Part shown: piece after piece, positions 7,383 through 62,396 of the stretch
Layout: each line of letters opens with the position of its first letter
Position numbering within the stretch: position 1 is the stretch's first letter
DNA from: Oceanicoccus sp. KOV_DT_Chl
GTDB taxonomy: Bacteria; Pseudomonadota; Gammaproteobacteria; Pseudomonadales; Dasaniaceae
NCBI RefSeq assembly: GCF_900120175.1
Contig: NZ_FQLF01000005.1
Location: forward strand, 64,501-128,500
Direction: 5' to 3'
Length of the DNA stretch: 64,000 bases
Notes under the pieces: generated by a model
Told to the model about the DNA's origin: nothing
Seen by the model: only the letters and a program-made list of their open reading frames with translations
Database searches by the model: none
Translations under genes and position numbers: made by a program

Positions 7383-8444
7383 ATGAGCACTTTATTCGAC
7401 CCTATAAAACTCGGCCAACTGCAACTGCAAAACCGCATCGTCATGGCACCTATGACCCGCTCCCGCGCCGACGAAAAAGATATGCCAACCGAACTCCACG
7501 TCGAATATTATCGACAGCGGGCCAGCGCCGGTTTAATTATTAGTGAAGGCACCCACCCCAGCAAAAATGGTAAGGGCTATTGCCGCACGCCGGGTATTTT
7601 TTCCGCTGACCACGCCAATGCCTGGAAAAAAGTAACCGACGCCGTACACACTGCTGGCGGAAAAATAGTGTGCCAGATTATGCACTGCGGTCGCATCGGC
7701 CACCCCGACAATAAAGCCCCCGATGCAGAAACTGTTGCGCCGTCGGCTATTCGCGCCAACGATAAAATATTTGTCGGCGACGGCATGAAACCCATGGCCG
7801 AGCCGCGCGCATTGACGACTGAAGAAATCGCCGACGTCATCAACGAATATCGACAGGCAACTATTTATGCCATGGACGCGGGCTTTGATGGTGTAGAGCT
7901 GCATTGCACCAGCGGCTATTTACCGGCGCAATTTTTATCCACCGGCACCAACCAACGCGGCGATCAATACGGTGGCTCGCTGGAAAACCGGTTGCGCTTT
8001 GTCACTGAAGTACTGGACACGATGATCAGCGTTGCTGGTGCCGGCAGAGTGGGCATGCGCATCTGTCCCGGTAACCCCTTTAATGATTTACACGACAACG
8101 ATCCCGAGCAAACCTTTGCTGCCCTGTTAGATAAAGTATCGCCAAAACAGTTAGCGTACTTGCATGTCATCCGGATGCCACAAGGACCGGTAGACAACTT
8201 GAAACTGGCGCGCCAGCATTTCAACGGGCCGCTGATTGTGAACGACAGTTACAGCGCCAATGAAGCGCAACAAGTGATCGCCAATGAGCAAGCAGCAGCC
8301 GTGTCTTTTGGCCGCGACTTTATTGCCAACCCCGATTTACCCAAGCGCATCCAAAATAAAGTTGCACTACAAACCATGGACCCCAGCACTTTATACACAC
8401 CGGGCGCCAAAGGTTATACCGACTATCCAGAAGCTAAACAGTAA
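7383..8444 (+). CDS. Old Yellow Enzyme family ene-reductase
   Basis: FMN-dependent NAD(P)H oxidoreductase that reduces activated C=C bonds. The 353-residue TIM barrel shows the N-terminal LQNRIVMAPMTRSRA, the QIMHCGRIGHP strand (99-108) and DQYGGSLENR. The active-site segment reads His174-Cys-Thr-Ser177-Gly-Tyr179; family members have His-x-x-Asn or His-x-x-His before Gly-Tyr, so one carbonyl-binding residue is a serine here, while the proton-donor tyrosine is kept. Closest in form to NemA/OYE proteins. It belongs to the operon, with 10 bp to the next start. Confidence 0.88.
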   Translation: MSTLFDPIKLGQLQLQNRIVMAPMTRSRADEKDMPTELHVEYYRQRASAGLIISEGTHPSKNGKGYCRTPGIFSADHANAWKKVTDAVHTAGGKIVCQIMHCGRIGHPDNKAPDAETVAPSAIRANDKIFVGDGMKPMAEPRALTTEEIADVINEYRQATIYAMDAGFDGVELHCTSGYLPAQFLSTGTNQRGDQYGGSLENRLRFVTEVLDTMISVAGAGRVGMRICPGNPFNDLHDNDPEQTFAALLDKVSPKQLAYLHVIRMPQGPVDNLKLARQHFNGPLIVNDSYSANEAQQVIANEQAAAVSFGRDFIANPDLPKRIQNKVALQTMDPSTLYTPGAKGYTDYPEAKQ

Positions 8445-8454
8445 CGAAACCAAC

Positions 8455-9450
8455 ATGACTGAAACTGAAAAATTACAGCAGCTCATCGGCCACCGGCTTG
8501 GTCCTTATAAAAGTTTCAATCCGGTTAACCGTGCGCAAATTTGGCAGTGGTGCGCGGCGATGGGCGATCACAACCCGCTCTACCTCAATGATGACTACCG
8601 CCCAAAAACCGAATTTAGCCAAGCCGTCGCACCTCCGGCGATGATGCAAATGTGGACCATGCGCGACTTTAATGACTGCTACGCCCCCGGCTCTACCAGC
8701 GACCGTCCCTATCAAGTTTTTGATGATATGACAGCGTTGGGTTATCCCGGTAATGTCGCCGTGAGCTATGACATTCATTTCAAACGACTACTAACCGAAG
8801 GGGAACGTCCGCTACACCACACCACCGTGGTTACCATCAGCGACAAAAAATCAACAGCCTTAGGTGACGGTTTTTTTGTCACGGAAAAAGTCGAATACAG
8901 CACCGAACAAGATCAAACTTTTGCCGAAGCGCTTATTACTTACTTTCAATACCAACCCAAAAACGATCACAACAGCTCGGTAACTAACACACTCACTGAG
9001 CGGAAAGAAGAATCCGCTGTTGAAAATCAGTGGCAACCCGACTTTAAAGATATTCACAGCAAGCAGCTCAACATTGGCGATACCTTGCCTGAACTGGCTA
9101 TTACCATTGACCATCGGCTGATCGTCGGCGGCGCCATTGCCAGCCAGGATTTTATTCCGGTGCATCACAACCTCCCCGCCGCACAAGCCGCAGGCATGCC
9201 CGATATCTTTATGAATATACTGACCACCAGCGGCCTCTGTACCCGCTACCTGACTGACTGGGCCGGGCCCGCCAGTCGCTTGCAACATCTAAGCTTTAAT
9301 TTATTGGCCCCAAACCATCCCGGCGACTGCATGACTATGCAGGGTCAGATAAAAAATATTGAAGCACCCAAAGTCACCGTCGACTTTGCGGGTAAAAACA
9401 GTCTGGGCTTTCATGTCACCGGCAGCGCCACACTGTTGTTAAGCGCCTAA
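8455..9450 (+). CDS. two-domain MaoC-like enoyl-CoA hydratase (FAS1-like dehydratase + MaoC)
   Basis: A 331-residue protein with two hotdog domains. The first (about residues 10-165) has the MaoC_dehydrat_N-like segment MGDHNPLYLND followed by APPAMM; the position of the usual catalytic histidine is a tyrosine. The second (about 200-330) has SQDFIPVHHN, which keeps the Asp and His of hydratase 2. So the C-terminal half is likely catalytic and the N-terminal half may shape the pocket, as in the ChsH1-ChsH2 pair of steroid degraders. The open frame begins at 8284, but ATG 8455 lies just after the previous stop. Probable role: hydration of an enoyl-CoA. Confidence 0.82.
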   Translation: MTETEKLQQLIGHRLGPYKSFNPVNRAQIWQWCAAMGDHNPLYLNDDYRPKTEFSQAVAPPAMMQMWTMRDFNDCYAPGSTSDRPYQVFDDMTALGYPGNVAVSYDIHFKRLLTEGERPLHHTTVVTISDKKSTALGDGFFVTEKVEYSTEQDQTFAEALITYFQYQPKNDHNSSVTNTLTERKEESAVENQWQPDFKDIHSKQLNIGDTLPELAITIDHRLIVGGAIASQDFIPVHHNLPAAQAAGMPDIFMNILTTSGLCTRYLTDWAGPASRLQHLSFNLLAPNHPGDCMTMQGQIKNIEAPKVTVDFAGKNSLGFHVTGSATLLLSA

Positions 9451-9472
9451 CACTTAATACGAGGTTTTAAAG

Positions 9473-10287
<815 letters not shown>

Positions 10288-10316
10288 ATTTATTACTTTT
10301 TGTTTGAGGAAATACC

Positions 10317-11075
10317 ATGAGTTTACTCGCCAATAAAATCGCTCTCGTCACCGGCTCCGGAATGGGTATAGGTCGCGCCATTGCCATTGCCTACGCCCGT
10401 GAAGGTGCCAGCGTGGTCGTGGCCGATTTCAATAGTGACGCCGGCCAGGAAACGGTTGCCCTGATTCAAGCGCAAAACGGTAACGCTATCTTTGTGCAAA
10501 GCGATGTCAGCAAAGAAGAACAAGTCGCCGCCACCATCAAAGCCGCCATCGATCACTACGGCCGTTTGGATATTGCCTGCAACAGTGCCGCCGTTAGCCG
10601 AGGTTCAGGCCCCATTCACGAATACGACCGCGAAGTCTTCGACCACACGTTAGAAATGTGCCTCACCAATACCTGGCTGTGTATGAAGTATGAAATCCCC
10701 GCCATGCTAGCCAATGGCGGCGGTGCCATCGTCAACATATCCTCCAACGCCTCACTCAAAGGCCAAGCCTTTAACACCGCCTACGCCGCCGCCAAATCCG
10801 GCGTCAATATTCTCACCAAAAGTTCCGCCGCGGAATATGGCAGCCAGGGCATTCGTATCAATGCCGTCTCACCAGGCGTCATTCGCACACCCGGCATAGA
10901 AAAATATTTTGAAGAGCAACCAAAAATAGCGGAAGGGCTAAAACGTGCTGCGGTGATGAATCGATTGGGGGAACCGGAAGAAATTGCTGAGGCAGTAGTT
11001 TTTCTTTCCTCAGAACGGGCGTCGTTTATTACTGGACAGATTTTGTCGGTGGATGGTGGCGGCTCAATAAAATAA
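10317..11075 (+). CDS. SDR oxidoreductase, last gene of the operon
   Basis: A 252-residue classical SDR with the full motif set: GSGMGIG (13-19), CNSAAVS in place of NNAG, ISSNAS with the catalytic serine, TAYAAAKSG with Tyr and Lys, and the C-terminal VDGGG. GAGG precedes ATG 10317 at normal spacing. Three SDRs in one operon with an ene-reductase and a hydratase suggest stepwise oxidation and reduction of one ring substrate. A short inverted repeat follows (11091-11111, 8-bp arms) without a T-run, so it is at best a weak terminator. Confidence 0.88.
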   Translation: MSLLANKIALVTGSGMGIGRAIAIAYAREGASVVVADFNSDAGQETVALIQAQNGNAIFVQSDVSKEEQVAATIKAAIDHYGRLDIACNSAAVSRGSGPIHEYDREVFDHTLEMCLTNTWLCMKYEIPAMLANGGGAIVNISSNASLKGQAFNTAYAAAKSGVNILTKSSAAEYGSQGIRINAVSPGVIRTPGIEKYFEEQPKIAEGLKRAAVMNRLGEPEEIAEAVVFLSSERASFITGQILSVDGGGSIK

Positions 11076-11514
11076 GGGCTTAGCCACCATTACTGTATGA
11101 TTTATACAGTATCAGTAAAAATCAGAAAAAACGGCCTCCTTCCCTAGAAGTTGGATTATAAGTGCTCAATATTTTTATACTAAGGATATCAATGTGTTAG
11201 AGTTGCCAGTTTGTAAATGTTCGGCAACTTATACCGACTCATCCTATGTAAGTGATTATCGACTACTTATATAGGACGCGTCGGTTGAATTATTCAAGAT
11301 TGCAGGTAAGATGCTTTCACAATAAAAATCAAAAGCTTAGGGATGAAATATTAATGCCGATGGAAAGACTTATACTGACCAGTCAGCAATTACCTCTGTT
11401 TTTACAACTTATACCGACTGGTCTGTGTAAATATACATATACCGACTGGTCGATATAATAAGCGTTATTTTCCAATGAATTATTGCTCTATTTTTTTACG
11501 GTAGGTTTAGACAC
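11076..11514. other. intergenic region with operator array, no gene
   Basis: No convincing gene lies between the SDR operon and the TpsB gene. It contains a hairpin at 11091-11111 (TACTGTAT/ATACAGTA) and a set of five related palindromes at 11229-11458, described separately. The composition is more AT-rich than the operon before it, marking the start of the accessory segment. Confidence 0.7.
11229..11458. promoter_or_regulatory. array of five related 22-bp operator-like palindromes
   Basis: Five sites share half-sites close to TTATACCGAC and GTCGGTATAA around a 2-bp centre: 11229-11250 (right half poor), 11268-11289, 11370-11391, 11409-11430 and 11437-11458. The last two are 28 bp apart centre to centre and are the best matches. 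Length and symmetry suit a TetR-type repressor. A sixth related site lies ahead of the MFS gene at 22421-22442. The array ends 57 bp before the TpsB start, so it probably controls that gene. Confidence 0.6.
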
Positions 11515-13091
11515 ATGAATAAAAACCTTTTTTTTTTACCGCCAGCCTAGCCTTTTGTGGAGCTGCTTCCGCTGACGATATGACAGTGGGCAACTGCATG
11601 GTAACTGGCGTTACGCAAATATCTGCCGATGCAGTGATACAGGCACTGCCTGGCTGTACTTCAGAGCGGACTGATGAAGCTGACGCGGTACAGACGGCGG
11701 CAGGGTTGGAACGCGCATTACGAAACAATGGTGCATTTGCGGCCAAGGTGTATCCAAGCTGGGATGAGCCAACTCAGCGCATCACGCTCACAGTTATAGA
11801 AGGACGACTGGCCGCTGACGGCATTGTGCTGGGCAGTTCCAGCCCGCGTGTTGACGATAAGATTATTATGAGTCAGCTGCAAAATATTCTTGTGCCGGGC
11901 AGTACACTCACCGCCAGAAAATACGAACGCGCAATTTTGCTGACCAATGATCTGCCCGGCGTGGGTGGCTCCGAAAGCGTGTTGTTCCCTGCCGATACGG
12001 TGGGTGAGGCGAAATTTGAATTACATCCTGCAGAAGGCAAGCTTGTTGATGGCCATGCGTATTACGACAACTTTGGCAGCAGCTATACCGGCCGTAATCG
12101 CTTCGGCGCAAGCCTCGACATTAATAGCCCGTTCCATGCGGGTGAAAAGTTCAGTGTCGGTGCCAATGCCACGGATGAAGGATCCGTTTTTGGTTATCTC
12201 GATGGCAGTATGCCGCTTTTCGTGTCGGGCTTGCGGGCGGGATTTACTGTGGATTCATTGGATTACAAAACCAATGAACCGAATAATCTACGTGGAACTT
12301 CGGATCATATTTCGGCGTATTTGACTTACCCTTTTATTCGCTCTCGGCAACTGAATCTGCAGGGTGAGCTGCGCTATGGGCGGGAAAGCATGGAAGACAA
12401 GACCGATCTTTCCACCGTGACCGATCGCGTGGTCGATGCCAGTTCATTCAAACTGAGCGGCGACTATGCCGATGGACTATGGGGCGGCGGCCTCAACACA
12501 ATGGAGCTTGATCTGGTTTTTGGCAATCTTGATTTGAGCGGTTATGCCCCCTACGAACTGGAGGATGCACAAACGGCAAAAACTGAAGGCCAGTTTGCAC
12601 GTTTTAGCTGGACACTTTCTCGTCTGCAACATCTAACGGGCAACTGGCAGAGCCTGCTTGAGTTTGCTGGGCAAGCGGCATCCAAGCGCCTTGATGGCAG
12701 CCAAGCCATTGCTTTTGGTGGAGCACATGATTTCCCTGGTTACTACAGTGGCGAAGTGCTCGGTGATGAAGGTCGGCGCCTGCACTGGGATTTGCGTTAT
12801 AACGTGCCGAATCCCTGGCTTGGTGGGCAGCAACAATGGTCAGTTTTTTATGGCTATGGATGGATTCAGACCCATGCAAAAGACATTGTCGGCGGCCTGA
12901 TTGTGCCCGGCATTGACGAAGAAAGTTATACTTTGCAATCCGCAGGGCTGGGATTTAGCCAGATTTTTTCCACATTTCAGGTGCAGGCAGCAGTAGGGTG
13001 GCGAATCAATAATGAAATTCCCGATGCGCTGCTCGATGGCAGCCCCAACGACAAACTGCACGGTTGGATTCAACTGGTTTACAACTTTTAG
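11515..13091 (+). CDS. two-partner secretion transporter (TpsB, ShlB/FhaC/HecB family)
   Basis: Outer-membrane pore of the Omp85 superfamily that exports a partner protein. The open frame from 11580 lacks a signal peptide. An ATG at 11515 begins MNKNL, a phenylalanine run and ASLAFCGAASADD, a clean signal peptide, in frame only if the T10 tract at 11528-11537 has one more T. After it come a POTRA-like region (about residues 25-150, with VIEGRLAADGIVL) and a beta-barrel region with HAYYDNFGSSYTGRNR, ending in a C-terminal Phe (IQLVYNF) as needed for BAM insertion. No TpsA gene follows; the next gene encodes a repeat protein. Confidence 0.82.
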
Positions 13092-13102: not shown

Positions 13103-14847
13103 ATGAATAAGAATATTTTAGCTGTCAGTGCAGGCTTATTGGTCGCGGCATCGTTATTGCCAATATGCGCACAAGCTTGCGTCACCAAGTCAGGCAAAGA
13201 TTGCACCAGCACTGTTGCAAATAAAGTTGACCATAAAGTGAAGCTAGGCAAAGTGGCGCCGGCTGCCAATGTGGGGGCGGTAGCACACACATCAGCGCCC
13301 GTTGGCATCGGGCAGGTCGCAACCACAGATCTACAGGTTAGCCCTTCAACACAAGAAATTTTTTATATCATGCCTCAGGTGATTAAACTTGATGGTACCC
13401 CTGTCCCACCACACTTGATACCTAACAATATTATTAAAAGTTCGAGTGGCATAGTAAATCCTGATGGTTCGTTAACCCAGCATGCCATTGATATGGGCTG
13501 GCAGACCATTACCGTCAAAGTGCCGGGGCAGATAGTGGTGCCTACACCCACAGCCGTGCCGTCGCCACGGGCGCCAGCATTGGCTCCTGCACAGTCATCC
13601 ATCAACGGACATATGCAGGTTTTTTATCATCAGTTAAGCCCCGAGAAACCTAAAAAACTGAATAAGCCCGGTGCGCATCGAGAAATTGTCGCTTCCTATT
13701 CGGTGGAGCAAATGCGCAGCCGAGGGCTTATCAATCAGACTGGAAGGTTAACGCTACAAGCCAGGCAACAAGGTTTTGCTACCACTATCACCCCATTGCC
13801 TGGGGTGCAGTATTACCGCACTCACAACGGACAGCAAATTCCTTTAACGCCACAGCAGACCCAGGCCTTGATTCAAGCCGGCCCGATTGGTATAGATGGC
13901 GCACTGAACCAAGCAGCCATAGATCATGGGTATTCTATGGTGATTAACAGGCCTGCGGAGCCTCTGCCTCAGCAGCTGGCCGCGCTGGGGCAGGCACCAC
14001 CGCAGACGGCGCCGCCACAGTTGGCTCCGGGCGTGACACCGGCGCAGCCAACGATACTTGGTAATGTGGCAGTGGTATATGAGCAAAGAGGGATTGATAA
14101 AAATCAAAAGCTGCTCAAACAAGGCCACGACACTCATATGGTGACCGGTTCTTATACCCTGCGACAGATGATTGACAGGGGATGGGCAATGCCTTCTGGC
14201 ACGTTAACCGATGCGGGGAGGCAGAATGCAATCACTCGCACTGTAACGCCGTTGCCGAGTGTTCAGTACTACGCGCGTAGACCGAATGGACAGCTGATTG
14301 CACTTACGCCGCAACAAACTCGTCAATTACTCGGAACCCCGTCGGTTAATCCTGATGGTACGTTGACTCAACAGGGTATTGATCATGGGTTTTCCGTGGC
14401 GGTGCAGACGCAACCCAACCTCGCCCCACAACAAGTGGTCGCGCCGGGCCAAGCAGCTCCGAATAAAGCACCAACACCACAGCAAGTGGCAGCACCCAAC
14501 CTAGCCCCACAACAAGTGGTTGCGCCGGGCCAAGCCGCTCCGGATAAAGTACCAACACCACAACAAGTGGCAGCACCCAACCTAGCCCCACAACAAGTGG
14601 TTGCGCCGGCCAAGCAGCACCGGATAAAGTGCCCACGCCACAACCAGTAACGACACCGAATCTTCTACCAACTCCTCTGTTATCTGGGAACCTGAGCAAT
14701 AGCAAGGCTGCTCAGCATACTAACGGTCCTGTTGAGGTGTATCACCCATTGCATGGTGCCACCTATGATTATGCCGATGCTATACAAACAGGGGATCCAG
14801 CCTTCCATTTGGTTGTTGTCGGGTTTAAGGAACCAAAAAACCAGTAA
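13103..14847 (+). CDS. exported proline/glutamine-rich repeat protein, likely partner of the TpsB
   Basis: I do not recognise this family. It has a signal peptide (about 1-25, ending ICAQA), then a region with five copies of a roughly 28-residue motif of the form G-x-[IL]-N-x-x-G-x-L-T-x-x-A-x-x-x-G-[FWY] (for example VNPDGSLTQHAIDMGW), arranged in two longer units of about 115 residues that contain TPLP-VQYY and LTPQQT. A proline-rich tail of three 27-residue repeats follows. The first frame stops at 14650; comparison of the repeats shows one G missing at 14608, and the true end is 14847 (VVVGFKEPKNQ). It starts 11 bp after the TpsB gene. No TPS secretion domain or beta-helix signature is seen. 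Confidence 0.7.
14417..14658 (+). repeat. three tandem 81-bp repeats encoding a Pro/Gln-rich tail
   Basis: Units at 14417-14497, 14498-14578 and 14579-14658 are nearly identical and each encodes NLAPQQVVAPGQAAP plus a KxPTPQQVAAP-like part (27 residues). The third is one base short (GCCGGCC instead of GCCGGGCC), which gives the frameshift in the host gene. Confidence 0.9.
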
Positions 14848-15284
14848 CCGTGACGCAAAAAAAAATAACAAGCGGCTACTGGGGACTGCATTACGTTGCT
14901 CTTCATGCAGCGCCGGAGCCGAGCGTTATGCGTTTCCATAAAGTATGAATTTCTCGAAATTTGAAACAAAGATGTACCTGTTTTTGGCCGAGTCCATGGG
15001 CTCAGAAGCGACCCTATCCGCATGTGAATTCGAGGGCGGGAAATAATACTGGACAGGCACTGACCAATACTGACCAGTAATAATAATACTGGACAGGCAC
15101 TGACCAATAATAAAAAACTGACCTCCATTCTCATCTAAAAAAACACCGAATTTCTACACCAAGTAGTTAACCCGGTCAGAAATCACAGGACAAACACAGC
15201 CCCAACCAAAAATCCCTGTTTTTCAGCAGCCGTTATCCCTGAGCCATAACGCTCATCAATATCAATAGTGACCTGGTTGGGAGA

Positions 15285-15487
15285 TTAGGCGGTGTTTTTA
15301 ACGCGTTGCCGTTTTTTAGCAAAGCGTTTGTGATAGATTTTCTCAAAGGCCGTGGCATTGATCAACCAGGTTTTCGGCTCTATGCCTAACCGTTCGAGTA
15401 TCGGTGGCAAGTGCAGGGCAATAGCCCCGCGCTTGTCATCGCAGATGGCTCTGCCGGTAAAATCAACTAAGGTCAGGTAATCATCCA
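15285..15487 (-). pseudogene. RAYT transposase fragment (last ~67 codons)
   Basis: This piece matches the C-terminal end of the full transposase at 16497-17468 almost exactly (DDYLTLVDFTGRAICDDKRG to QRVKNTA). It is cut off by the left end of the next copy at 15491. It has no catalytic residues and is not expected to be functional. Confidence 0.85.
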
Positions 15488-15693
15488 TAAAATAATACTG
15501 GACAGGCACTGACCAATAATAAAAAACTGACCTCCATTCTCATCTAAAAAAACACCGAATTTCTACACCAAGTAGCTAACCCGGTCAGAAATCACAGGAC
15601 AAACACAGCCCCAACCACAAATCCCTGTTTTTCAGCAGCCGTTATCCCTGAGCCATAACGCTCATCAATATCAATAGTGACCTAGTTGGGAGA

Positions 15694-16221
15694 TTAGGCG
15701 GTGTTTTTAACGCGTTGCCGTTTTTTAGCAAAACGTTTGTGATAGATTTTCTCAAAGGCCGTGGCATTGATCAGCCAGGTTTTCCGCTCTATGCCTAACC
15801 GTTCGAGTATCGGTGGCAGGTCTAGAGCAATAACCCCTCGCTTGTCATCGCAGATGGCTCTGCCGGTAAAATCAACTAAGGTCAGGTAATCATCCAGGCT
15901 GAAGAGTAAGCCCTGTTGTGTGTTGAGGGTGATATTGCCCTCAAATGACAGCAGTGGTTTGAGGGGAACATTAAAGGTATTGAGCTGCTGTGAGGCGAGC
16001 AGCTCGCTAATGGATTCTGCGAGGTTTAGCGATGGGCTGATTCGCTCTTTAATACTGGTATGCTCTGATTCCTCTGGAGTGGGCGCCATTGCTGCGCGTA
16101 TTGGGTTGAGATCCACATAGGCCATACAACTCAGCAGTGCTTCTTGCGTTAACAAAGCTTGCGAGTGGTAACGGGCTTCCCAGAAGTGGCCTCGGCAACC
16201 ATCCTCTTTATTGGCCATGCG
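15694..16221 (-). pseudogene. RAYT transposase fragment (last ~175 codons)
   Basis: The sequence matches the full-length transposase from MANKEDGCRGHFWEARYHSQ to the C-terminus. It lacks the HUH domain. The open frame starts upstream within the reverse of the repeat (MVSACPVLLR), an accident of the junction. Small differences from the full copy (for instance SFEGN for PFEGN) show it is a separate, slightly diverged duplicate. Confidence 0.87.
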
Positions 16222-16300
16222 TAATAATACTGGACAGGCACTGACCAATAATTAAAAAACTGACTTCCATTCTCATCTAAAAAAGGTCAATAATAATACT

Positions 16301-17543
16301 GGACAGGCACTGACCAATAATTAAAAAACTGACTTCCATTCTCATCTAAAAAAAATACCGGATTTCTACACCAAGTAGTTAACCCGGTCAGAGATCACAG
16401 GACAAACACAGCCCCAACCACAAATCCCTGTTTTTCAGCAGCCGTTATCCCTGAGCCATAACGCTCATCAATATCAATAGTGACCTAGTTGGGAGATTAG
16501 GCGGTGTTTTTAACGCGTTGCCGTTTTTTAGCAAAACGTTTGTGATAGATTTTCTCAAAGGCCGTGGCATTGATCAGCCAGGTTTTCCGCTCTATGCCTA
16601 ACCGTTCGAGTATCGGTGGCAAGTGCAGGGCAATAGCCCCGCGCTTGTCATCGCAGATGGCTCTGCCGGTAAAATCAACTAAGGTCAGGTAATCATCCAG
16701 GCTGAAGAGTAAGCCCTGTTGTGTATTGAGGGTGATATTGCCCTCAAATGGCAGCAGCGGTTTGAGGGGAACATTAAAGGTATTGAGCTGCTGTGAGGCG
16801 AGCAGCTCGCTAATGGATTCTGCGAGGTTTAGCGATGGGCTGATTCGCTCTTTAATACTGGTATGCTCTGATTCCTCTGGGGTGGGCGCCATTGCTGCGC
16901 GTATTGGGTTGAGATCCACATAGGTCATACAACTCAGCAGTGCTTCTTGCGTTAACAAAGCTTGCGAGTGGTAACGGGCTTCCCAGAAGTGGCCTCGGCA
17001 ACCATCCTCTTTATTGGCCATGCGGGCGATGGGCTCGTTAAGGCATTTCATAAACCAGCTAATATCCCCTAACCGCTGGCGATAGGTGTGAATAATCTCG
17101 TTCACTGTCTGTCGTTCCGCGTCATCAAGCCATACCCCCTTGCTGTATTGTTGAATCAGCAAAGGTCCTTTAAATAGACTGGTCCAGCGTTCCACGACTT
17201 CCTGATGGGTCCAATCATCCACCCCTTCAGGAGAAAGCTTAACGACCAGATGCAAGTGATTGGACATCACCGCATAAGCAGCAATATCAATGGCAAATAT
17301 CGAACTGAGTAAATGAATCCGCTGTTCGATAAAGAGCCTGCGGTGGGAGTAATCCGCTCCTGTGGCATGATCAACCCCGCACAGAAACGAGCGGCGCACA
17401 CAGCGGGAAGTAATATGATAGAAGGGCGTGTCATCGACACAGATGAGTGATTTTCTGGGAAGTGTCATCGTAATTCCTTTTACGAAGTATGTGCGCTGAC
17501 GTTAAAGCGGTGTTATTGTTTTGTCAATGTTGAGTGCCTGTCC
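16301..17543 (-). mobile_element. full-length RAYT/IS200-like element
   Basis: The element is bounded by GGACAGGCACT at 16301-16311 and its inverse AGTGCCTGTCC at 17533-17543, about 1.24 kb apart, around one intact transposase gene. Y1 transposases usually act on hairpins rather than classical inverted ends, so I regard these 11-mers as part of the recognition sequence. No target-site duplication is evident. Confidence 0.7.
16497..17468 (-). CDS. REP-associated tyrosine transposase (Y1, IS200-like)
   Basis: Single-strand DNA transposase or REP-processing enzyme of 323 residues. The HUH motif is in AVMSNHLHLVVK (near 67-78), and the region GHFWEARYHSQALL near 160-173 is characteristic of the RAYT group; RAYT proteins also carry a conserved nucleophilic tyrosine whose position I cannot fix. 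The N-terminus (PFYHITSRCVRRSFLCG) is also typical of RAYTs. Two truncated duplicates lie directly downstream on the same strand. The gene looks intact, with no shifts. Such proteins can mobilise short palindromic repeats. Confidence 0.9.
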   Translation of the reverse strand: MTLPRKSLICVDDTPFYHITSRCVRRSFLCGVDHATGADYSHRRLFIEQRIHLLSSIFAIDIAAYAVMSNHLHLVVKLSPEGVDDWTHQEVVERWTSLFKGPLLIQQYSKGVWLDDAERQTVNEIIHTYRQRLGDISWFMKCLNEPIARMANKEDGCRGHFWEARYHSQALLTQEALLSCMTYVDLNPIRAAMAPTPEESEHTSIKERISPSLNLAESISELLASQQLNTFNVPLKPLLPFEGNITLNTQQGLLFSLDDYLTLVDFTGRAICDDKRGAIALHLPPILERLGIERKTWLINATAFEKIYHKRFAKKRQRVKNTA

Positions 17544-59360: not shown

Positions 59361-60502
59361 TTACTGAACCATAATTCGCTTTTCAGTACTGATTGCCATT
59401 AACAAACCGAAACCCGCCAACAATGTTACCAACGACGTCCCTCCCTGGCTAACTAACGGTAACGGTACGCCAACCACCGGTAACAAACCCGACACCATGC
59501 CCATATTCACAAATACATAAACAAAAAAAGTTAAGGTAATACTGCCGGCTAATAAGCGCCCAAAACAATGCTGTGCATTCATACCAATCCATAAACCACG
59601 GGCAATAATCGCAAGATAAGTCACCAATAAAACCAATACACCTTGCAAGCCCCACTCTTCAGCCAATACCGCAATGATAAAATCAGTATGACTCTCGGGC
59701 AAAAATTCCAAATGGGATTGGGTACCATTAAGCCAACCTTTACCATCCCAGCCTCCGGAGCCAATCGCTGTTTTCGACTGAATAATATTCCATCCCGCCC
59801 CAGCTTATCGCTTTCTGGATTAAACATAGTCAGGATTCGCTGTTTTTGATAGTCCCGCAAAACATATTGCCACATCGGATAAGCTGCTAGCACCGCCAAA
59901 CCGACAGCACCAAAAATAAACCCCAAACCAATGCCTGATAAAAACAACACAAAAATACCGGACGCGGCTATCAAAATGGAAGTACCCAAGTCAGGCTGCT
60001 GAGCAATTAATAGTGTAGGCACAGCCACTATCCCCAGACTCACAAGAATATATTTAAACCTGGGAGGTAAATTTCGGGTTGAAAAATACCAGGCTACAGC
60101 CATTGGCAGCACTAACTTCATCAACTCTGACGGCTGAAACCGAAAGCCACCCAAACTTAACCACCGCTGTGCACCTTTAGCACCAACACCAATTAGCGGC
60201 ACCGCAATTAACAGGCCGATGCCAATTAAATACCCTAACGGTGCCAACCGTTTTATTCTCTCTACATCAAACTGCGCTATCACTAACATACCAACATAGG
60301 CGATCAATAAAAATCTGCCTTGCCGGATCAACGTGTCTATCGATTGTCCGCTGGCGCTATACAACACTACCAACCCAAAAACTGTGAGCGTGAGTAATAA
60401 CAGCAACAATAATGGATCGATGTGCAGCCGCTGCCACAAGCCTACGCGACGAGCCAGGTCAGAGGACTGACCGGGCATTTGACGTACAAAATCCTGACTC
60501 AT
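59361..60502 (-). CDS. rodA: peptidoglycan polymerase RodA (SEDS family), one-base shift near 59799
   Basis: Inner-membrane glycosyltransferase of the elongasome. The first frame has [20 protein letters not shown], then breaks; one more base in CCCC at 59798-59801 gives [20 protein letters not shown] and reaches the frame that ends at 59361 with [20 protein letters not shown] and [10 protein letters not shown]. About 380 residues and 10 helices. The start is ATG 60502 ([12 protein letters not shown]), overlapping the mrdA stop by 4 bp. RodA is normally essential, so the shift is best read as a consensus error. Confidence 0.95.
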
Positions 60503-62396
60503 TGCGCCCCCCCTACAGCCACCTGACCGACAAATTCTGCAGGCGACTCTTCTTCCAGCATCCCCTGATCTATTAGCCAAGCGTCAAACACCTTGCGCGC
60601 CACAGGCGAAATCCACGAACCATGCTCACCATTTTCAACGATCACCGCGACTACAATTTTAGGGTTTTCAACCGGCGCAAAACCAATAAATAAACCATGA
60701 TCACGTTTACGCTTGGCAATTTCTTCGGGATTAACCTGATCTCCCTGCACCATATCAATCATTTGTGCGGTTCCGGTTTTACCCGCCATACGATATTTGG
60801 CGCCACGATTAATGCGGGTAGCGGTACCTCGAGCACCATGGACCACCTGCTCCATCGCATAAATTACTGCCTGCCAGTTTTCCTCAGACGCGTCAATCGG
60901 TGGTAGCGGCTGAGGTGGTAAATCCCGATCGTTCATCTTTTGTAATAATTGTGGTTTAAAATTTTTGCCGCGATTGGCAATCGCCACCAACGACTTCGCC
61001 ATCTGCATTGGAGTCACCAGCATATAACCCTGACCAATTCCTACGCTCAAAGTTTCACCGGGGAACCAAGGTAAGCGTTTATAGATTTTCTTCCACTCTC
61101 TGGAAGGCAATAAACCACTGCGCTCATTAGTAATATCAACACCGGTTTTTTCACCGTAACCAAATGGCGCCATAAAATCATGGATCTTATCGATACCCAT
61201 TCTGTAGGCCAAATCAAAATAATAAGTATCACAGGATTCAACGATCGACATTTCTAAATCGACCGCCTTGCCATGGCCACGCTTATGCTTGTGCCACGTC
61301 CAGTCCCGATACAAACGCTCATCATTGGGTAGACGATACCAGCCAGGATCATTAATCGTGGTCGTCGGCTTGACTAAGCCATAATGCAAACCCGCCAAAC
61401 CATAGAGCGGCTTAACGGTGGATGCCGGCGGATACTGCCCCTGCAAGGCACGATTAAACAGTGGTAAATCGATAGAGTCACGCAGCACGTTATAATCCCG
61501 GCTACTAATGCCACCAACAAATAAATTGGCATCAAAACTGGGCTTGCTAACCATCGCCAGCACACCACCATTGCGCGGATCAATCGCCACAACCGCGCCA
61601 CGATTATCACCCAATGCCTCATCTGCTACTTTTTGAACATGCGCATCCAAATATAAATGTAAATCCGAACCAGGCCCGGATCGGTCCTTTCCAATACACG
61701 CAATACCCGTCCACGGGCATTAGTTTCTACGTTCTGATATCCCACCTGACCATGTAAAACATCTTCGTAATATTTTTCCAGGCCTATTTTTCCGATCTGG
61801 TTGGTACCGCTGTAATTAACCTCATCAATTTCAAATTGTTCTTTTTCACTGATGCGGCCAACATAACCCAACACATGGGCAAACAATTCACCCTGCGGGT
61901 AATAACGAGCAAGCTCAGCATTCACTTCAACCCCGGGTAAGCGGTAACGATTGACCGAAATCGCTGCAATCTCTTCTTCACTGAGTTGTAACTTAAGGGG
62001 AACAGCGGAATATGGCCGGCGACGCTCTGACAACCGCTTAAATTTTTCAATATTGTCCTCATCGATAGACACGATTTCAGACAACAGCTCAATTGTCTTA
62101 TCCAACCCATCCACACGCTCTTTAACAATCGTCAAACTATAACTGGGTCGATTCTCTGCCAATAACACGCCGTTGCGATCATAAATCAGCCCACGCTTGG
62201 GCGGGATCGGTAACAACTGCACGCGGTTGCGCTCGGACTGGGTGCTGTAGATTTCATGCTCGGTAATTTGCAAGTTGAAATAGCGCAGGATTACCAAACT
62301 CAATAACAGCAGTACGAATACACCTGACACAACCGTTCTAGAGCCGTAAATGCGCTTCTCGTTATAGGTGTCTTTCAGTGCGACTTGTTCAGCCAT
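60499..62396 (-). CDS. mrdA: penicillin-binding protein 2, one-base shift near 61675
   Basis: Class B transpeptidase that partners RodA. One membrane helix (YGSRTVVSGVFVLLLLSLVI) is followed by the N-terminal pedestal, then SxxK in YPPASTVKPLYGLAGLHYG, SxD in VESCDTYYFDLAYR and KTG in AGKTGTAQM. The frame breaks at GGCCTG near 61675: one more base gives DPGPGSDLHLYLDAHVQKVA and joins the 62396-61626 and 61650-60499 pieces into about 632 residues. The protein is essential in rods, again pointing to a consensus error. The start of rodA overlaps its stop. Confidence 0.96.

Follow-up and report, generated by a model that had tools for sequence, protein, structure and literature searches.

The window, a 64,000-nucleotide stretch of contig NZ_FQLF01000005.1 from Oceanicoccus sp. 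KOV_DT_Chl, contains a gene for a TpsB-type outer-membrane transporter (11580-13091, + strand) followed, after an intergenic gap of 11 bp and on the same strand, by a gene for an exported repeat protein (13103-14847, + strand; the called ORF stops at 14650). A Pfam profile search of the first ORF returned PF03865 (ShlB) with an E-value of 2.9e-13 and 50.4 bits against a cut-off of 22.7. This match and the ORF coordinates confirmed the arrangement proposed in an initial sequence-only reading, a TpsB with an exported repeat protein 11 bp behind it.

The transporter and the repeat protein

The start of the TpsB gene, which encodes the signal peptide, was located by six-frame reading at 11515-11579 (+ strand), out of frame with the 11580 ORF. 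The break between the signal peptide, which starts with an ATG at 11515, and the 11580 ORF falls at a run of ten T residues (11528-11537), the longest T run in the window, and TASLAFCGAASADD was read in the downstream frame ahead of POTRA1. The transporter was assigned to a clade of TpsBs with TPS-less cargo by its PF03865 match, by alignment to POTRA_2-bearing relatives and by its position in the tree. PF03865 scores of the TpsBs of clade relatives were 44-63 bits. POTRA_2 (PF08479) was not called in the window TpsB and scored 51-68 bits in three clade relatives that align over that region. As far as the upstream frame break allows it to be read, POTRA1 of the window TpsB comes straight after the signal peptide, without the H1 plug helix and linker; a segment matching H1 and the linker exists in the other clade members aligned. 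The window TpsB is strongly diverged, with 33-35% identity to its nearest relatives and a long branch in the tree, and comparison with the sequences of solved structures gave no match.

The repeat protein has a signal-peptide-like N-terminus followed by a Cys-x7-Cys pair (Cys26 and Cys34; 13178-13204, + strand), the spacing of which is identical in four relatives. Five copies of a motif of about 28 residues had been reported from the sequence alone. All five copies of the motif, ..G..n.dG.Lt..a.d.Gf...v, are real, but each is only the C-terminal half of a module of 53-65 residues. The modules, all on the + strand, lie at residues 84-142 (module 1, 13352-13528), 171-234 (module 2, long type, 13613-13804), 234-286 (module 3, short type, 13802-13960), 322-386 (module 4, long type, 14066-14260) and 386-439 (module 5, short type, 14258-14419). 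A profile built from four units gave 78-113 bits when scored on those units themselves, as it must, and 16 bits for the remaining unit, which had been left out. The Pro/Gln-rich tail noted in the sequence-only reading was borne out and is encoded by a tandem array of 2.9 copies of 81 bp (14413-14648, + strand). Beyond it, a conserved C-terminal motif, GPVEVYH...DAI...FHLVVVG.KEP, is encoded at 14725-14844 (+ strand).

Searches of the repeat protein against Pfam and NCBIfam returned nothing above cut-off, TPS domain included. A pair of modules was predicted to adopt a mixed beta/alpha structure with a pLDDT of 80.4 and a pTM of 0.56, from a three-row alignment, the pLDDT of the individual models ranging from 46 to 80. 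Foldseek gave no significant match to the module, a result that does not show a new fold, and sequence comparison of the module with solved structures gave no convincing match. GYF_2 was matched by one module at an E-value of 0.2, below cut-off, and the WWE fold gave a Z-score of only 3.3. For the C-terminal motif the predicted structure reached a pLDDT of 51, giving only a hint of two strands. The idea that this motif is half a module was rejected, as profile-profile comparison gave it a probability of 0.2%.

Frame breaks and flanking sequences

The span 13103-14847 given in the sequence-only reading is not one open frame: the frame breaks within the 81-bp array, so that the ORF 13103-14650 ends early and the frame continues to 14847. 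A profile of four relatives, made with the window left out, ranked the frame to 14847 first among 1440 window frames (E-value 2.6e-5), and a stricter profile of three relatives also ranked it first, weakly (E-value 0.021). Since a profile free of the window ranks it first, the frame running to 14847 is, on this evidence from relatives, genuine coding sequence, and the called ORF is thus truncated.

Frame breaks were also observed elsewhere in the window. In the region 59624-62396 (- strand), a PBP2 gene is split over two frames, with the dimerisation domain at 61629-62396 and the transpeptidase domain at 60502-61650, and the RodA ORF matches only part of its profile. A short-chain dehydrogenase (SDR) gene at 9473-10287 is split between two frames at approximately 10.05 kb. 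A living rod would hardly be expected to lack PBP2, and assembly indels are therefore the likeliest cause of the breaks, including those in both genes of the pair.

Three palindromic operator-like sites lie upstream of the pair, at 11371-11389 (TATACTGACCAGTCAGCAA), 11410-11428 (TATACCGACTGGTCTGTGT) and 11438-11456 (TATACCGACTGGTCGATAT), the last overlapping a promoter-like hexamer pair at 11432-11459. The palindrome type TATACCGACTGGTCNNTAT gave 10 strand matches in the window with a 3-mismatch pattern, against 0.18 expected; six of the ten are both strands of the three sites at 11371-11456. Promoter-like matches in the region were no commoner than chance (4 found, 5.0 expected). The three palindromes before TpsB are unusually dense and are candidate repressor operators, possibly TetR-type sites. 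Directly behind the pair, the region 15045-17468 contains a near-perfect tandem duplication of 409 bp (15082-15896) and a Y1/IS200-like transposase, present as one full and one truncated copy.

Recurrence of the pair in other genomes

Homologues of the repeat protein were not found in genome contigs, viral contigs, plasmids or its family, and a search of its order returned two matches, both to the low-complexity Pro/Gln tail only. Relatives were reached through TpsB searches and a tree and not through the cargo. The two nearest TpsBs in the order are 35% and 30% identical to the window TpsB, and the short exported proteins encoded behind them begin ..ANCQHSNSWQC and ..ANCQQSQSWQC. A family-wide TpsB search yielded a third locus, and a scan of genome contigs with four TpsBs yielded seven loci, three of them already seen: in Seongchinamella sediminis, Porticoccus, Halioglobus, a member of the Rhodocyclaceae, another betaproteobacterium, Microbulbifer mangrovi and a metagenome-assembled genome (MAG) labelled Coxiella. 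The relative searches sampled Porticoccaceae and Rhodocyclaceae shallowly. Members come mostly from marine or sediment proteobacteria.

In a tree of 92 TpsBs, eight grouped with a ninth, from genome G509, with an SH-aLRT of 99. In a more careful tree of 45 TpsBs the nine formed one clade (support 97/98), recovered in 98% of 200 bootstrap trees. Tree placement of G509 in the clade preceded any look at its neighbouring gene, and the neighbour was then found to be of the same kind. Behind all eight other clade TpsBs (the seven and G509) the next gene encodes a short, signal-peptide-bearing, Pro-rich repeat protein. The arrangement thus recurs at every one of the nine TpsBs of the clade, which speaks against a chance pairing. 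No third gene was common to the loci.

Complete cargos of the seven-locus set are 290-440 residues long, and all four share the C-terminal motif, for example QNQRVELYRSNDAEEVLYKDVIPMDKTGFHLTVFGTRPPAYQ. The cargo genes of Halioglobus, Microbulbifer and the betaproteobacterium, three of the nine, run off their contigs, leaving the C-termini unseen. Five members carry C-x7-C close to the N-terminus; the 'Coxiella' and G509 proteins have a Cys pair close to the C-terminus. The middle regions of the cargos vary freely in length and sequence, and the conserved parts are short and terminal. The cargo of G509 is a Pro/Gln/Thr repeat protein of approximately 900 residues with no clear C-terminal motif. 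One stretch of it resembles the short module of the window protein and was the best non-self match among 3799 ORFs (E-value 0.29-0.43), a link that is suggestive only; the window modules had no convincing recurrence in another genome. A plasmid search with the cargo of the Rhodocyclaceae relative found nothing. The nearest plasmid-borne TpsB (34%), that of Paraburkholderia caledonica, has a large YDG-domain protein as its neighbour.

TPS-domain partners in the member genomes

The absence of a TPS domain from the repeat protein, as originally proposed, held in profile searches of the window protein (Pfam and NCBIfam) and of the five relatives tested. Searches of the window genome gave four ShlB matches and three TPS matches. 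Every TPS gene lies beside one of the remaining three TpsBs, leaving no TpsA gene elsewhere for the TpsB of the pair. At an E-value of 0.001 or below, TPS matches were absent from the Seongchinamella, Halioglobus, Porticoccus and 'Coxiella' MAG genomes, each of which has one TpsB. In the remaining member genomes, TPS genes are present but sit on different contigs or at a great distance from the TpsB of the clade. When the same searches were applied to five classical genomes as controls, a TPS gene was found within approximately 6 kb of every TpsB.

Lid-lock residues

In Omp85 proteins, a salt bridge fixes loop L6 inside the barrel; it joins the Arg of a (V/I)RG(Y/F) motif to the Asp of an (F/G)xDxG motif, which are R450 and D492 in FhaC (PMC4490367). 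The L6 and strand-13 motifs have been described as essential (PMC7644211, PMC4490367), and the function of L6 has been called unclear (PMC7644211). Alignment of the window TpsB placed the L6 tip at 12717-12749 (+ strand; GGAHDFPGYYS), where Pro (12735-12737) replaces the lid-lock Arg, and the strand-13 motif at 12846-12863 (+ strand; FYGYGW), where Gly (12852-12854) replaces the lid-lock Asp. The L6 Arg was present in 80 of 83 other TpsBs and in none of the eight core clade members, which have Pro or Ala instead. The strand-13 residue of the same eight is A, Q, S, T or G; among the 83 other TpsBs, 70 have a residue there (D in 62, E in 7) and 13 are gapped. Basal G509 keeps both Arg and Asp, so that the loss applies to eight of nine members. 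A second alignment method (L-INS-i) gave the same result, with R and D in 20 of 20 controls. Fisher's test gave a p-value for the Arg of 1.5e-8, a figure that ignores shared descent. As the eight share descent, the pattern probably reflects one double loss, a single evolutionary event, and not eight. Outside the clade, two of the three TpsBs without the Arg (G868 and G1003) adjoin large, conventional-looking partners, indicating that a missing L6 Arg is not by itself a predictor of an unusual cargo.

Discussion

TpsBs have been described as dedicated to haemagglutinin-like partners with a TPS domain (PMC4104836, PMC5422565), and reviews tie recognition of the partner to that domain (PMC5422565). 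The pair resembles the FhaC/ShlB systems of type Vb (PMC5422565) in its PF03865 fold, probable POTRA region, adjacent co-directional genes and signal-peptide-bearing partner. It differs in that the partner lacks the N-terminal TPS domain PF05860, is short (290-900 aa) and Pro-rich where the type Vb partner is a large beta-helix, and is encoded after the transporter gene; in eight of the nine members both the L6 Arg and the strand-13 Asp are also replaced. The Omp85/TpsB survey of Heinz and Lithgow (2014) found no TpsB groups other than FhaC and Hmw1B (PMC4104836); the clade falls in the TpsB half of that classification by PF03865 and is absent from the survey. ZirTS of Salmonella also comprises two genes, and its outer-membrane barrel exports an exoprotein that is not a TpsA (PMC2270342). 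ZirT, however, is an intimin/invasin barrel, whereas the barrel described here is PF03865 ShlB with no intimin-type family reported. A literature search, with most subscription journals outside its coverage, returned no description of the pair. We class the pair as a variant of two-partner secretion: its transporter is TpsB by its barrel, and both the domain that defines the partner and the lid-lock were looked for and found to be missing.

We favour, as rather probable, the reading that the two genes form an operon belonging to an undescribed TpsB subfamily, whose members export, and perhaps tether, a flexible surface protein without a TPS domain. The TpsB barrel would export the product of the next gene, a small protein that would take the place of the usual TpsA. 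The cargo would cross the inner membrane by means of its signal peptide (Sec) and, because its middle is a Pro-rich repeat, is proposed to stay unfolded and so pass through the barrel without a TPS domain. The short conserved ends of the cargo may stand in for that domain: the C-terminal beta-hairpin-like motif could be a recognition signal for the POTRA region or a displayed tip, and the terminal Cys pair, N-terminal in core members and near the C-terminus in the two outliers, could form a small disulphide loop that stops or tethers the chain. HMW1 is tethered at HMW1B by a C-terminal Cys loop, and by analogy the Cys pair could stop the cargo and hold it in the channel; unlike in HMW1, it is N-terminal in core members and the cargo has no TPS domain. 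Loops of HMW1B that tether HMW1 have been mentioned (PMC5422565). The product would be a flexible fibre of variable length, secreted or surface-tethered, and a role as a flexible adhesin or spacer at the surface is the simplest guess. The transporter would be adapted to such a cargo: it has lost both lid-lock partners, and the window copy also lacks the plug-helix segment.

Recurrence in the clade, the missing TPS domain and the lack of a spare TpsA make the 'new class of cargo' suggested in the sequence-only reading a fair one. The suggestion had been of a cargo or an accessory protein, and the second half of it is still a live rival. The core TpsBs lack residues whose mutation impairs other Omp85 proteins and, by that analogy, might not act as translocases. 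In the main rival to the favoured reading, unlikely in our view, the small protein would work with the TpsB in the periplasm, for instance as a gate, plug or chaperone standing in for the missing lid-lock and plug helix, and the barrel would export a different cargo or assemble another surface structure. Such a partner would fit a TpsB that has lost its gating elements and, in the window, the segment between signal peptide and POTRA1, and would fit a protein whose conserved parts are short and terminal. Against it, four member genomes hold no other TPS-type substrate, the loci share no third gene, and the middles vary freely, a pattern more typical of surface fibres than of fixed gates. That the pair is instead an ordinary two-partner system, its TpsA lost or unlinked and the repeat protein an unrelated neighbour, is very improbable. 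TpsBs can in principle serve unlinked partners and the genome holds three TpsA genes, but each of these adjoins its own TpsB, four genomes are without any TPS match, and the same pairing is seen in nine genomes of one TpsB clade.

Two further explanations concern the state of the window copy. Both genes carry frame breaks, the TpsB sits on a long branch and lacks the H1 segment, and transposase remnants lie downstream, all of which would suit a decaying relic with a degenerate TpsB. However, the essential PBP2 gene and the SDR gene of the same window are broken likewise, pointing to assembly indels; both genes are otherwise open over approximately 500 codons each, and behind the break in the cargo gene the C-terminal motif survives. 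We regard decay as improbable on these grounds. Surface proteins are classic targets of phase variation, and the T run, the window's longest, falls exactly within the signal-peptide codons of TpsB, where it could act as a switch, the assembly having caught the off state of a live system. The second, independent break in the cargo gene and the broken housekeeping genes speak against such a switch, which we consider quite improbable.

If the favoured reading of an exporting TpsB holds, the clade could be a third branch of type V two-partner secretion, in which a lid-lock-free TpsB recognises the short ends of a disordered Pro-rich protein and not a TPS domain. We put this forward tentatively, as possible though somewhat doubtful; were it true, neither the TPS domain nor the Omp85 lid-lock would be required for export by this barrel. 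A natural clade with both lock residues lost together and the partner changed allows one to ask directly what purpose the lock serves, and how few features a substrate must have to be exported by an Omp85 barrel.

Other TpsB genes with unusual neighbours were observed during the searches. Two loci (L104 in G757 and L105 in G645) have TpsB genes without a TpsA-like neighbour, beside which lie genes for a sigma-54-type regulator, a peptidyl-prolyl isomerase-like protein and an HlyD-like secretion adaptor. At a third locus (L150 in G647, 7955-10362), a TpsB outside the clade and without the L6 Arg is followed within 3 bp by a gene for a 229-residue protein with an N-terminal membrane-anchor-like start, possibly a further odd TpsB pair.
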